Assembly: GCA_902568975.1 (NCBI GenBank)
Contig: CACFSO010000002.1
Location: 52,480-116,479, forward strand
Direction of reading: 5' to 3'
DNA from: an uncultured Pelagibacteraceae bacterium
Lineage (GTDB): Bacteria; Pseudomonadota; Alphaproteobacteria; Pelagibacterales; Pelagibacteraceae
Length of the DNA stretch: 64,000 bases
The translations under genes and the position numbers were made by a program. The notes beneath the pieces are model-generated. The model saw only the letters and a program-made list of their open reading frames with translations, had not been told where the DNA came from and did not search any database. Shown here in pieces: positions 56,636 to 64,000 of this stretch; position 1 is the first letter of the stretch, and every line of letters begins with the position of its first letter.

Positions 56636-58426
56636 TTAGTTTACTAATGATTTTTGAGGTTTCATATCCTCTTTACTAATACCCGCTACTTTAACAGGTT
56701 TTTTCATTGCATCTCTTCTAAAAGGTTCTCCTAATTCTTGATTTAAAATAACCTCTATAAATGTTGTTATTCCTTTCTTTTGATCTTCGCACGACTGTTT
56801 AATTGCTGAAGTTGTTTCTTCCATTGTTTTAACTGTTACTCCTTTTAATCCACATGCAGTAGCAACTTTAGAATAACTGAGTTCTGGATCAAGTTCTGTG
56901 CCCACAAAATTATCTTCATACCAAAGTATAGAGTTTCTTTTTTCAGCTCCCCACTGATAATTTCTAAATATAACCATTGTAATTCCTGGCCATTCTTCTC
57001 TAGCACAAGAACTCATCTCATTCATACTTATTCCAAATGCTCCATCTCCAGCAAAACCAATTACTGGTGTGTTTGGACAGCCGATTTTTGCTCCAAGAAT
57101 GGAAGGAAATCCATAGCCGCAAGGACCGAATAATCCTGGAGATAAATATTTTCTTCCCTTTTCAAAAGTAGGATAAGCATTACCAATTGCACAATTATTT
57201 CCTATATCACTTGATATAATTACATCATCTGGCATAGCAACTTGAATAGCTCTCCAAGCTTGTCTTGGCGACATTCTATCTTTATCTCTTTCTCTAGCTT
57301 CTTTATTCCAAACTGTACCTGGATCATCTTCCTCATGATCTAAACCTGTTAGTGTTTGAAGCCAAGCAGATTTTGTTTTATGTATTAAATTTTTTCTATC
57401 TTCTCTTCCATTATCTCCAGCATTAGAAGAAAGTTTTCCAAATATCTGTTGTGAAACCATTTTGGCATCTCCACATATTCCTACTGTTACTTTCTTTGTT
57501 AAGCCAATTCTATCCGCATTCATATCAACTTGAATTACTTTTGCATTGTTTGGCCAATATTCAATTCCATAACATGGTAATGTTGAAAAAGGATTTAATC
57601 TAGTTCCTAAAGCTAAAACAACATCTGCTTTTGAAATTATTTCCATAGCAGCTTTAGAACCATTGTATCCTAATGGACCTACAGCTAAAGGATGGCTACC
57701 GGGAAAGCTATCGTTATGTTGATAACCATTGCATACTGGTGCATCTAATTTTTCTGCTAATTTTTTACATTCTTCAATTGCATTACCTATAACAACTCCA
57801 GCTCCTGATAAAATTACCGGAAATTTAGCCTCTGATAATAATTTTGCAGCTCTATTGATTGCTTCTTCTCCACCACCTTGTTTTTCAAATCTAACTATTG
57901 GAGGAATCTCAATATCTACTACCTTTGTCCAATAGTCCCTTGGAATATTTATTTGTGCGGGAGCTGATCCTCTAAATGCCTTTTCGATAACTCGGTTTAA
58001 TACTTCCGCCATCCTTGATGGGTCTCTTACCTCTTCTTGATAACAAACCATATCTTTAAACAAATTCATTTGTTCAACTTCCTGGAAACCTCCTTGGCCC
58101 ATTGTTTTATTAGCTGCTTGAGGAGTTACTAATAATAAAGGTGTGTGATTCCAATATGCGGTTTTGATTGGAGTAACCAAACCAGTTATTCCTGGTCCAT
58201 TTTGTGCAATTACCATAGACATTTTTCCAGTTGCTCTGGTATAGCCATCAGCAATCAATCCACCATTTGTTTCATGAGCAACATCCCAAAATGTAATACC
58301 TGCGGTTGGAAAGAGATCTGAAATTGGCATGAATGCAGATCCAATAATTCCAAAAGCATTTTCAATGCCATGTTTTTGAAGAACTTTTATAAAAGCTTCT
58401 TCTGTTGTCATTTTTGTCATAAACAA
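56636..58426 (-). CDS. xsc: Sulfoacetaldehyde acetyltransferase (thiamine diphosphate enzyme)
   Basis: MTTEEAFIKVLQKHGIENAFGIIGSAFMPISDLFPTAGITFWDVAHETNGGLIADGYTRATGKMSMVIAQNGPGITGLV, matches remembered Xsc family sequence. Confidence 0.9.
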   Translation of the reverse strand: MFMTKMTTEEAFIKVLQKHGIENAFGIIGSAFMPISDLFPTAGITFWDVAHETNGGLIADGYTRATGKMSMVIAQNGPGITGLVTPIKTAYWNHTPLLLVTPQAANKTMGQGGFQEVEQMNLFKDMVCYQEEVRDPSRMAEVLNRVIEKAFRGSAPAQINIPRDYWTKVVDIEIPPIVRFEKQGGGEEAINRAAKLLSEAKFPVILSGAGVVIGNAIEECKKLAEKLDAPVCNGYQHNDSFPGSHPLAVGPLGYNGSKAAMEIISKADVVLALGTRLNPFSTLPCYGIEYWPNNAKVIQVDMNADRIGLTKKVTVGICGDAKMVSQQIFGKLSSNAGDNGREDRKNLIHKTKSAWLQTLTGLDHEEDDPGTVWNKEARERDKDRMSPRQAWRAIQVAMPDDVIISSDIGNNCAIGNAYPTFEKGRKYLSPGLFGPCGYGFPSILGAKIGCPNTPVIGFAGDGAFGISMNEMSSCAREEWPGITMVIFRNYQWGAEKRNSILWYEDNFVGTELDPELSYSKVATACGLKGVTVKTMEETTSAIKQSCEDQKKGITTFIEVILNQELGEPFRRDAMKKPVKVAGISKEDMKPQKSLVN

Positions 58427-58512
58427 TAAAACCTATTAAAAAAAAATTTATTTGCAATCGGAGAATTAATATATAGATTTAGTACTATTTTCTACAAGGA
58501 AATTTTGCCACA

Positions 58513-58800
58513 ATGGCCAATACAGATGTAATTATACACGATAAAAAAGACAACGTAGGAGTTGTTGTAATAGAAAAAGTAAATAAAGCACAAGATTGTG
58601 AATGCTGGATCATGGAAGATGACTCATCAACAAAAATTCAATCAATTAGCGATATACCTTTAGGTCACAAAATAGCAATGGTTGATTTTAATGAAGGAGA
58701 TACGATTATAAAATACGGTCATGATATAGGGAAAGTAGTTAAATCAATTAAAAAAGGTGAACATGTTCATGTTCACAATGTAAAAACTAAAAAGTGGTAA
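58513..58800 (+). CDS. suyA: UxaA N-terminal (SAF) family; sulfolactate sulfo-lyase small subunit-like
   Basis: 95 aa with ...[17 protein letters not shown]-domain tail; paired with a UxaA-C protein beside xsc. Confidence 0.72.
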
Positions 58801-58801
58801 A

Positions 58802-59968
58802 ATGGAAATTCCAAAAAGTTTTTTAGGTTATAAAAGAGAAAATGGTAGAGTCGGTACAAGAAATCATGTGGTAATTCTTCCTGTGGACGATATTTCTAAT
58901 GCGTGTGCAGAAGCTGTTGCAAATAATATAAAAGGTACCTTTGCTATTCCTCATGCGTATGGGAGGCTTCAGTTTGGTGCTGACTTAGAATTGTTTTTTG
59001 ATACGATGATTGGTACTGGAAAGAATCCAAATGTAGCAGCTTGTATTGTTATTGGAATTGAACCTAAGTGGACAAAAAAAATTGTTGATGCAATTACGAC
59101 TACTGGAAAACCTGTAGAAGGTTTTAGTATAGAGGGTTCGGGTGATATTAAAACTATAATGAAAGCATCCCAAAAAGCACAAGAATTTTCACAGTGGGCT
59201 TCGGAAAAACAAAGAGAAGAATGTCCTATAAGTGATTTATGGATTTCAGTTAAATGTGGAGAATCGGATACAACATCTGGTATGGCAGCAAATCCTGCTG
59301 TAGGAAATTTAATGGATAAATTAGAACCTTTGGGAGTACATTTATGTTTTGGCGAAACATCAGAACTTACAGGAGCCGAAAAGGTTTGTGCTTTGAGAGG
59401 AAAAACATCAGAAGCTTCAAAAAAATTTATGAAAACATGGAGTGATTATAATGATTTTATACTTAAAGAAGCAACTAACGACCTTTCAGAAAGCCAGCCA
59501 ACAGCCGGTAATATTGCAGGTGGTCTAACAACAATCGAAGAAAAAGCATTCGGTAATTTTCAGAAAATTGGATCAAGAAAATTTATTGATGTATTAACAC
59601 CAGCAGAGGAGCCAAAAAAAGGTCCAGGATTATATTTTATGGATACTTCATCTGCCGCTGGTGAATGTCTAACTTTACAAGCGGCAGCTGGGTTTAATAT
59701 TCATTTATTTCCAACTGGGCAAGGTAATATTATTGGTAATGCAATAGAACCTGTTGTCAAATTAACCGGTAATCCAAGTACAGCTAAAAACATGAAAGAA
59801 CATATTGATTTAGATGTTTCTAAAATTTTAAAACGAGAAATGAACATGGATCAAGCTGGTGATGAATTAATTAAAACTACTATTAAAGCAGCCAGTGGTA
59901 GATTGACTTGTGCTGAAGTTTTGGGTCATAAAGAATTTATTATGACAAAATTATTTAGAAGCGCTTAA
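58802..59968 (+). CDS. suyB: UxaA C-terminal family; sulfolactate sulfo-lyase large subunit-like
   Basis: [60 protein letters not shown]; resembles SuyB more than altronate dehydratase. Confidence 0.74.
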
Positions 59969-59971
59969 AAA

Positions 59972-60277
59972 TTATTTTCCAGCAGTTTCAGATACAAAAT
60001 ATGAAACTGCGTTAATTTCTTCCTCTGTAAGAATTCCTTCAAATCTAGGCATGACGCCTATACCATTTTTAACTGAGTTCATAACTTGAGACATGATAGG
60101 TGCCAGTTGGTCCAAATTTGGCCCAATCTGTCCCTGTGAACTGGCAGCTTGCAAAGTATGGCAGGTGCCACATTGAGCTTTATTTTTATATACATCTAGA
60201 CCAAGATCCATTTTATCATTTGAAAAAACTTGACTTGAATTAATTAAAAAAAACAAAATAAATAAAGCTTTTTTCAT
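59972..60277 (-). CDS. Periplasmic c-type cytochrome
   Basis: Signal peptide; CGTCH haem motif; MPRFEGILTEEEINAVSYFVSETAGK. Confidence 0.9.
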   Translation of the reverse strand: MKKALFILFFLINSSQVFSNDKMDLGLDVYKNKAQCGTCHTLQAASSQGQIGPNLDQLAPIMSQVMNSVKNGIGVMPRFEGILTEEEINAVSYFVSETAGK

Positions 60278-60283
60278 AAAAAG

Positions 60284-60634
60284 TTAAAATATAGTAGCTC
60301 CAAAAACTTTAACCTGATCTCCTTCTTCACCTAATACAAGTCTGCCTAAAAATTCTCCAGGAATTTTTGTACTTTTTTGTTTATATAGTACTGTAACATA
60401 TAAACCTCTCCTAAGACATCCAAATGCTTTACTATCATCTGAAAGGGTAGATATTAGTTCATTGCTAGACCATTGTTTTCCAAGTTCAACTTCATTTGCT
60501 CCATAAAGCATCTGAGATGAAAGATCTTTTGTAAAACTGCCATAATCTTTAATATTAGAAGACCTTAATAAATTTTGCCAAATTGGATCGGCTATTTTAA
60601 TAATTTCCTCATCGGATTTATCTAAAAAACTCAT
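60284..60634 (-). CDS. Uncharacterised 116-aa protein linked to aprA
   Basis: Intact ORF between aprA and cytochrome c, same strand, short spacers; no family recognised. Confidence 0.7.
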   Translation of the reverse strand: MSFLDKSDEEIIKIADPIWQNLLRSSNIKDYGSFTKDLSSQMLYGANEVELGKQWSSNELISTLSDDSKAFGCLRRGLYVTVLYKQKSTKIPGEFLGRLVLGEEGDQVKVFGATIF

Positions 60635-60653
60635 TATATTTTAAAAAATTATT

Positions 60654-62508
60654 TTAAGAAGCTTGTTTCTTCTCTTTATCATCAACTATATGATAAACTG
60701 GTTTTTTTTCCATTAAGAATTTACCAGTCTCAGTGTCTCTGCTTGAAACAGTTAAACAATGCCAGTTTTCATCATCTAACTTCATATAATCTCCTCTATA
60801 GTAATATCCTGGCCAACGTGTTTCTTGTCTAAAAAGAGTATGTTCGGTTACGCACTGGGATGTAAGAGTTCTATGTTTTAATTCCCAAGCTCTCATTAAT
60901 TGGTGATAGTCTTCAGCGCCTAAATTTTCAAGATCTTCTTGCAACCATTCTAGCAACTCTAGTCCTTTTTTTTAGAGTATTTTCATTAGTCATATAATTA
61001 TAAGTTATACCTCCTACATACTCATCCATTATTTTCTGTAATCTCTGAAGACCTTGAATTGGAGAAATGTAACTTGGAGAAACAGTTCCTCCAGTAATTT
61101 CATTTCTACCAACTGTATAGTTTTCCATAGGTTTATAAATGACTTCTTTTAAATTTTGATATTGTCTTTCTGAAACTTGAATACCGTTAGCTTTTTTGTC
61201 TTGGATATATTTAACTGCAGCTTTAGCGGCCAATCTTCCTTCGGTAAAAGAACCTGATGAAAATTTATGAGCACTTCCTCCAACAGTATCTCCTGCTCCA
61301 AACAAGCCTTCCACTGACATCATTCTATTATAACCCCAAAAATAATCATCAGGAGCTATATCTTCTGGGCCACTTACCCATGCTCCTGAACAAGTTGCAT
61401 GGGAACCCATTACATATGGTTCAGATGTAGTTAGTTCTGGATTTGTATATTTTGGATCAATATTTTGTGATGCCCAAACAACAGCTTGACCAACAGTCAT
61501 GCCTAGAAAATTTTCCCATCCGATGGTTTCTAAATGTGGGTCTTGAAAGGCTTCTTTTGTAACCATATGAATTGGTCCACCACCTGCCATAACTTCCTGT
61601 ATAAAAGCATGGTTACGTAAACAAGTTGGAGTTGGGTGATGATCTATATATTCTCCAACTAGCTCTTTAGTTTTTTCATACCATTTCTTCTCATAATTTT
61701 CACCATTTGCATTTTGAGTGTAAGTTTTTAAATGTAAAAAATATGCTCCTACAGGTCCATAACCATCTTTAAATCTACATAAAACAATTCTATTTTCCAT
61801 TTGTGTCATTTTAGCTCCAACAGCTATAGGAAGTGCGTAAGCTGAACCATTGCTCCATGGAGCATACCAAGTTCTTCCCATTCCTTCTCCTACTGCTCTC
61901 GGTTTAAAAATATGTGAAGCTCCACCAGCTGCTACTATTACAGTTTTAGACTTAAAAACATAATAATCTCCAGTCCTCATGTTAAAACCTACTGCTCCAC
62001 CTATTCTATTTTGCTTACTTTCATCTTTTAAAAGATGAGTAATCATTATTCTATTGTAAATTTTATCTGCTGATTTTTTTGCAGCTTCTGCAACAATTGG
62101 TTTATAGCTTTCGCCATGTATCATTATTTGCCACTTACCTTCTCTTTGATATCTACCTTCTTTGTTTTTCATCATTGGCAGACCCCATTCGTCAAACATA
62201 TGCACTGTTGAATCTACATGCCTTGCCATATCATAACCTAGATCCTCTCTAACAAGACCCATTAAGTCATTTCTTGCATAACGAACATGATCCTCTGGCA
62301 TATTCTCACCCCATTGCATACCCATATAACAATTGATTGCATATAGGCCCTGCGCAACAGCTCCGCTTCTATCTATGTTTGCTTTTTCTACACAAATTAT
62401 TTTTAAATCTCTTCCCCAATGTCTGGCTTCAAATGCGGCGCCGGTACCAGCCATACCTCCACCAACTACTAGAACATCACACTCTTCATAAATAGTTTTT
62501 CTAGCCAT
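60654..62508 (-). CDS. aprA: Adenylylsulfate (APS) reductase alpha subunit, split by +1 frameshift into track ORFs 60928..62508 and 60654..60956
   Basis: CDVLVVGGGMAGTGAAFEARHWGRDLKIICVEKANIDRSGAVAQGLYAINCYMGMQWGENMPEDHVRYARNDLMGLVREDLGYDMARHVDSTVHMFDEWGLP (AprA); C-terminal part ...LEWLQEDLENLGAEDYHQLMRAWELKHRTLTSQCVTEHTLFRQETRWPGYYYRGDY in another frame; joined at an A8 tract. Confidence 0.93.
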
Positions 62509-62978
62509 TAATAGTAAACTCCTTTTTTAAAAACACTTTTCTCAACTTTGGGTAATTCTTCATTCGTGTTTAATCCTTGAGGTTCTGAATATAAAATTTG
62601 AGAATTCATTTCTCCCTGGTTTGGTTTATCTCCATCAGCTAATTTAGGAATAAATTTTCCCCATGGTTTAGTAGTTATTGGAGAAATAAAATCTTTAACT
62701 GTTCCATTTCTAAATTTAATTTTCCAAGATATTGTTCCTTTTTCTTCCTCTCTTCTAACTCTAACACTATGTCCCATCGGTGCAAAATCTGCGTATCCAC
62801 GAACATCAATTGCATGATTAGGACATGCTTTTACACAAGAATAACATTCCCAACAGAAGTTAGGTTCAATGTTTTTTGCACGTCTAATTGTTTCATCAAT
62901 ATGCATAATATCAGAAGGGCAAATATCTACGCAATGGCCACATCCATCACATCTAGTCATGTATACAAAAGTTGACAT
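62508..62978 (-). CDS. aprB: Adenylylsulfate (APS) reductase beta subunit (ferredoxin-like)
   Basis: CDGCGHCVDICPSDIMHID and CWECYSCVKACPNHAIDVRGYADFAPMGHSVRVRREE. Confidence 0.93.
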   Translation of the reverse strand: MSTFVYMTRCDGCGHCVDICPSDIMHIDETIRRAKNIEPNFCWECYSCVKACPNHAIDVRGYADFAPMGHSVRVRREEEKGTISWKIKFRNGTVKDFISPITTKPWGKFIPKLADGDKPNQGEMNSQILYSEPQGLNTNEELPKVEKSVFKKGVYY

Positions 62979-62999
62979 ATTTAATTTTTCTCTATCATA

Positions 63000-63800
63000 T
63001 TAATAATGTTTTGGCTCTTCTCTTTTTATACCCAAGCCAAATTTTTCAGGTGCATCTGCTGGGGGCGGCAAATTATCTCTAGAGCCGTCAGCTTCAGCTA
63101 AATTTTTTTGTATTGCGGCCCCGGGTTTATAAAACATATGTGCAAATTTTGACCAATATACACCTCCAAACAATACAAGATTTGATAAAATATAAAAAAC
63201 TAAAAATACTTTATCATCCCATCTATCGTTAAGATTTAATGATTGAAGAAACGACCAAGCTAAACCAAAAAGAGAAGAAGCTATAAGAGCTAGAACAAAT
63301 AAGTCTGCTTTAATAATTCTGTACCAAGGTTGAGCTTCTGAGTAAACATCAACTCTTAAAAAAAACCAGAACCATGATCCTCCTACCACTGTCATTATAG
63401 CGCCCATGTGCCAGATAATTGGCCAAACTGAAGGTGTATCAGAAGATGGAGATGAATAACAAAAAATCATTATTACTGAGGCAGCCCAAAATAAAATAGT
63501 ACCATACATACCAAGAAGATGAGCAGCTCTTCTTTGTCCGGCTCCTAGTTCAGATGTAGTGGCAATGTCACTAACTATAGTTTTAGAAATTACAGAAATT
63601 TTTTCACTAGTGGTTAAAGTTTTAGTTGCAGATAATTTTGCTTTTTTTGCATTTTCAAAAAAATATTTTACATTTTTTTTATGAATAATATCTATTAGAG
63701 TTCCAACAATAACTAACAATATCATAAAAACCACAAATGATTGAATAAATATCAGTGAAATACTTTCAGATAATACTGCAAATGGATTAATAGATAACAT
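63000..63800 (-). CDS. AprM-like membrane anchor (putative electron-transfer membrane subunit) upstream of aprBA
   Basis: About 5 predicted TM segments; SELGAGQRRAAHLLGMYGTILFWAASVIMIF; position before aprB; start MLSINPFAV at 63800 preferred over track start 63851. Confidence 0.7.
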   Translation of the reverse strand: MLSINPFAVLSESISLIFIQSFVVFMILLVIVGTLIDIIHKKNVKYFFENAKKAKLSATKTLTTSEKISVISKTIVSDIATTSELGAGQRRAAHLLGMYGTILFWAASVIMIFCYSSPSSDTPSVWPIIWHMGAIMTVVGGSWFWFFLRVDVYSEAQPWYRIIKADLFVLALIASSLFGLAWSFLQSLNLNDRWDDKVFLVFYILSNLVLFGGVYWSKFAHMFYKPGAAIQKNLAEADGSRDNLPPPADAPEKFGLGIKREEPKHY

Positions 63801-63847
63801 TATAGTTTCCCCCGAACTAAGGTTTTTAGTATAGATAAGATAATAGA

Positions 63848-64000
63848 TCAACCGTTATATCTTGGACAATTCGAAACAGCTTTTTGATAAATTTTTAATA
63901 AAATTCTGTAATATTTCAAACTTGTTCTTTTCCAATTAGTGTTAATTATAGAATTTACTGATACTACACCCTTTCCAGAACCTATTAGTATAATTTCATT
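63848..64000 (-). CDS. C-terminal fragment of a protein, possibly class IV aminotransferase (window-edge truncated)
   Basis: Reverse frame from 64000 reads NEIILIGSGKGVVSVNSIINTNWKRTSLKYYRILLKIYQKAVSNCPRYNG*; GKGVVSV resembles BCAT/ADC-lyase C-termini. Confidence 0.5.
   Translation of the reverse strand, partial: NEIILIGSGKGVVSVNSIINTNWKRTSLKYYRILLKIYQKAVSNCPRYNG

Follow-up and report, generated by a model that had tools for sequence, protein, structure and literature searches.

The window analyzed here is a 64,000-nucleotide stretch of DNA from an uncultured Pelagibacteraceae (SAR11) bacterium, and its aprA gene changes frame at a run of eight A's. The question is what this break represents. 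A sequence-only reading of the locus had left three options: a homopolymer sequencing or assembly error, a recent mutation, or a functional slippery tract at which slippage yields a mixture of full-length and truncated AprA. We examined the gene and its neighbors, the same tract in related genomes, and the frames of other genes in this and sister assemblies.

The frame break in aprA and the genes around it

On the minus strand, the 5' aprA frame runs AAT ACT CTA AAA AAA AGG ACT AGA and on to a TGA, read as NTLKKRTRVARMVARRS*. Past the A8 run, the +1 frame reads on as GLELLEWLQEDLENLGAEDYHQLMRAWELKHR, down to position 60654. The locus is composed of the following features:

60654..60965, minus strand: 3' part of aprA, in the +1 frame, GLELLEWLQEDLENLG... 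to TAA; TIGR02061 positions 527-616, E value of 1e-38
60966..60973, minus strand: A8 run (T8 on the plus strand), the site of the +1 frame change; relatives have at most seven A's
60928..62508, minus strand: 5' part of aprA, codons 1-526 as read, then a frameshifted tail and TGA; TIGR02061 positions 1-526, E value of 9e-250
62508..62978, minus strand: aprB, intact, directly upstream of aprA; TIGR02060, 188.6 bits (cut-off, 135.65)
63000..63851, minus strand: membrane protein gene, 283 aa, upstream of aprB; aprM-like by position, with only a weak TcuB match

The whole aprA span (60654-62508) is 1855 nt, or 3n+1. The 5' ORF (60928-62508) is 526 aa long and alone scores 832 bits against the 616-position AprA profile TIGR02061, for which the curated cut-off is 641.75; the 3' part supplies positions 527-616. 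The gene also has the adjacency to aprB that marks AprA, and aprB (62508-62978) is above the TIGR02060 cut-off. The 3' ORF occupies 60654-60956, with a TTG at 60956, just past the tract. The sequence as given truly contains the frame break, which is not a chance feature. The sequence-only reading had the T8 position, the frame change, and the span length exactly right, and the letters and the profile matches of both halves agree. It had also described aprB, the membrane gene, and the cytochrome as apparently intact; all three are open frames, aprB belonging to TIGR02060 and the cytochrome c being SorU-like.

Beside aprBA, positions 56636-60277 hold xsc, for sulfoacetaldehyde acetyltransferase (above cut-off), the gene for the SorU-like cytochrome c, and a pair of 95 and 388 aa from the galactarate/altronate dehydratase superfamily, which we take to be possibly a sulfolactate sulfo-lyase. 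Together, the genes near aprBA look like a cluster for degrading sulfonates and oxidizing sulfite. A 116-aa ORF (60284-60634) separates aprA from the cytochrome gene; in G046, a genome from another family, aprA is likewise followed by a similar start (KKSDEEILEIASPLWDNLIV). This ORF had no match in NCBIfam or Pfam, the 283-aa membrane protein had none in Pfam, and a search of window positions 58000-64000 against Rfam returned no match.

The A8 run itself is ordinary, with nothing special about it. On its 116-kb contig (C2), about 160 coding runs of at least eight A's lie in open reading frames (91 A8, 50 A9, and 19 A10-A13). This contig was scanned by homology with four relatives, which covered 16.5 kb, and then by a scan of reading frames based on codon usage and by a homology scan of wider coverage. 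Nearly all junctions in the codon-usage scan were ordinary stop/start boundaries, and aprA is the sole homology-confirmed break on the contig.

The tract and the selection on aprA among relatives

Among 399 sampled genomes from the genus, aprA was matched in 333 and, as judged by best E value, was full length in about 309 of these; most others end at contig ends. The remaining 66 drafts, many of them incomplete, had no match. The gene is frameshifted in three congeneric genomes: that of the window, G076 (A8, near codon 36), and G343 (T6, near codon 404).

Compared with the aprA genes of SAR11 relatives, such as AG-343-D15 (L097) and AG-365-I20 (L098), that of the window has one more A. L098 has an identical local sequence but with A7. 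When 46 other aprA genes were aligned with it, the window alone had the extra base, and the longest A run at the tract was 2 to 7 across 138 distinct aprA genes, with 8 in the window only. The comparison with related genes that had been proposed earlier therefore finds a break private to the window and a tract length that is not conserved. A slippage-type tract would be expected to persist across populations or species while the gene stays undecayed; here, A8 was found in the window only.

We considered a slippery hotspot shared with G046, where GGCAAAAAAATC stands in place of the GGGACTAATC of a relative. This idea was dropped, because the G046 change is +2 nt and lies about 10 nt downstream of the site in the window, and because the other two broken congeneric genes break elsewhere. 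Since the aprA breaks lie at differing places, they mark no programmed site. A scan of viral contigs for the aprA junction with A7 to A9 gave no match. Two other aprA variants were seen in the survey. One gene (L066, G089:C2:6127-7824) lacks about 40 residues, the stretch after HAFIQEV, through an in-frame deletion and has an open frame of 592 aa, and one draft (G114, contigs C17 and C13) has two full-length copies, as mixed cells, a duplication, or an assembly error would produce.

Amino acid identity between the window and its 15 closest aprA relatives reaches 96% in the 5' part and is 83 to 91% in the 3' part. Against close relatives, dN is 0.02 to 0.05 for the 5' part and about 0.06 to 0.10 for the 3' part, where dS is about 1 or saturated. 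In the window, identity changes by -4.7 points between the 5' and the 3' part; 54 intact relatives span this value, with a mean of -3.9 and a lowest value of -8.4. By these substitution rates, the 3' part is under purifying selection. The earlier view that both halves are conserved and the locus is not decayed is borne out, and a dN/dS near 1 past the junction, which would have marked a true pseudogene, was absent; neither relaxed selection nor further lesions were found in aprA. With both halves conserved, the break must be either very recent or not real in the cell.

Frame breaks in other genes of the draft and in rpoB

The draft that contains the window has 997 kb in 31 contigs and is 77% complete. 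The named relatives nearest to it are uncultured Pelagibacteraceae, and many are AG-xxx isolates whose contigs are labeled NODE, as in single-cell collections. From these relatives and the shape of the draft, we infer that it is probably a single amplified genome. We sampled this genome (G000) in stretches, 456 kb in all, and found four more broken genes, in each of which both halves match one family:

G000:C3:38966 (L201): proS (proline-tRNA ligase), frameshift of +1 at A8
G000:C3:59270 (L202): lexA (LexA), frameshift of +1 at A9
G000:C4:8688 (L204): biotin carboxylase gene (accC-like), frameshift of -1, A7 where A8 fits
G000:C6:31061 (L211): polA (DNA polymerase I), frameshift of +1 at A8

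A search of the assembly for second copies of proS and polA found none. Verified frameshifts in the sampled part amount to about 1.1 per 100 kb. Further candidates (G000:C4:35808, G000:C6:22496, and three in another genome, G012) lacked homology confirmation on both sides and were not counted; no candidate in G012 was confirmed by homology. Three single-contig genomes (G106, G321, and G408) gave no frameshift candidate in 300 kb.

The homology scan found three breaks in the roughly 150 kb covered in the window's genome versus none in about 454 kb of seven other genomes. However, aprA was chosen for being broken, and with it excluded the contrast rests on two events, which would both fall in the window's genome with a chance of about 0.06. 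A higher break rate in this genome than in the other sampled genomes is therefore suggestive. The argument is carried by the fact that rpoB, proS, and polA are essential, and not by the rate contrast.

The gene rpoB is essential and single copy, and a cell cannot lose it. It was present in 305 of the same 399 genomes, with nine homopolymer frameshifts in eight assemblies:

L182-L189 (G061, G246, G333, G183, G347, G087, G240, and G025): frameshifted rpoB, nine breaks in A/T homopolymers, all +1

The runs are A8, A9, T9, A7, A8 plus A6 (one genome), A10, A8, and A8, and the sign was taken from the offset between the two matches. With rough gene lengths, the frameshift rate is about 8 per Mb for rpoB (about 1.1 Mb) versus about 5 per Mb for aprA (about 0.6 Mb), and aprA shows no excess. 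Breaks like that in aprA thus occur in genes that cannot be lost, proS and polA in the same assembly and rpoB in sister assemblies. All 12 frameshifts of the genus in aprA (3) and rpoB (9) are +1 insertions. A generic error model does not account for this uniform sign, which counts against reading the breaks as artefacts.

Two rpoB genes in the survey were unusual in other ways. A piece of one (L192, G205:C18:4300-8399) is inverted relative to the remaining gene on the same contig, the pattern that an amplification chimera would give, and one contig (G329:C3) bears two full-length copies of equal score, which may reflect mixed cells, a duplication, or an assembly error.

Explanations for the aprA break

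Because breaks of this kind also hit indispensable genes of the draft, the aprA break is most likely a homopolymer error. Very probably, it is an indel from amplification, sequencing, or assembly, and neither a switch nor a dying gene. The aprA gene of the cell would be intact, with a tract of A7, and one extra A would have been gained while this SAR11 draft was amplified, made into a library, sequenced, or assembled. The indel would be one among several homopolymer indels of the assembly, with aprA and its tract unremarkable. We infer that the extra base is not present in the cell. Of the three options raised at the outset, homopolymer error is thus favored by rpoB and by proS, polA, lexA, and the biotin carboxylase gene, and the functional slippery tract is not supported.

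The SCGC single-cell workflow, that of the center behind the GORG-Tropics single-cell genomes, also produced many of the relatives of the window. A benchmark of this workflow put the indel rate of its assemblies at 3.0 per 100 kb (PMC11247762), and the verified rate in the present draft is lower. Like such assemblies, the draft has single-base indels that are private and dispersed, here at A/T runs within genes that are otherwise conserved. The two differ in that the benchmark used cultures of other species and the single-cell origin of the draft is only probable.

A real and very recent replication slippage from A7 to A8 in one cell or strain is unlikely. It would have made a loss-of-function allele, with AprA about 100 residues shorter, that has yet to be purged. 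A/T runs are natural mutation hotspots, the break is private to the window, and aprA seems dispensable in some SAR11, given the 66 of 399 drafts, many incomplete, that lack a match. However, aprA has accumulated no decay, and a living cell could hardly carry the breaks that the same assembly has in proS and polA.

It is very unlikely that the tract is a functional or tolerated slippery site that gives some full-length AprA by RNA polymerase slippage or a ribosomal +1 shift. To rescue the frame, the RNA polymerase would have to drop one A or add two, or the ribosome would have to shift by +1 at the AGG codon after the tract. The 3' part of aprA is conserved, and slippage rescue of poly(A) frameshifts has been described or proposed for the AT-rich endosymbionts Blochmannia and Buchnera (PMC3017870). 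As in those cases, the genome is AT rich and the indel lies in an A run of a frame that is otherwise intact and under purifying selection. Unlike those cases, the host is free-living, the tract is shorter (A8, with some of the other breaks at A6 or A7, too short for strong slippage), and neither its length nor the break is conserved between species; no relative has the same break. Also unlike them, essential genes are broken in this one draft and not in its single-contig relatives. About 160 coding runs of at least eight A's on the same contig sit in open frames. Moreover, a transcriptome-wide survey of Buchnera and Escherichia coli, which disputes the rescue proposed in the earlier study, found no restored frame and found that homopolymer insertions prevail over deletions (PMC5574713), so the loss of one A needed here is in the direction that transcription slippage rarely takes.

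Also very unlikely is a wider version, that some free-living SAR11 truly carry A/T-run insertions in rpoB, proS, polA, and aprA and that slippage partly restores the transcript frame. Extremely unlikely is a truly split gene whose 3' ORF has its own start at the TTG just past the tract, since no relative is split here with such a start, the nearby G046 break is a different change, and none of the 309 full-length aprA genes in the genus encodes AprA in two pieces.

Real breaks would mean that free-living SAR11 bacteria live with frameshifted essential genes, and this would be a great surprise. With homopolymer error as the most likely cause, the protein annotation of this assembly needs careful handling. 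For the genus, the result is a caution and not a discovery: its AT-rich drafts have private homopolymer frameshifts in the essential rpoB at about the same rate per kilobase as in aprA, and reads are therefore needed before such breaks are taken for gene loss, phase variation, or slippage.
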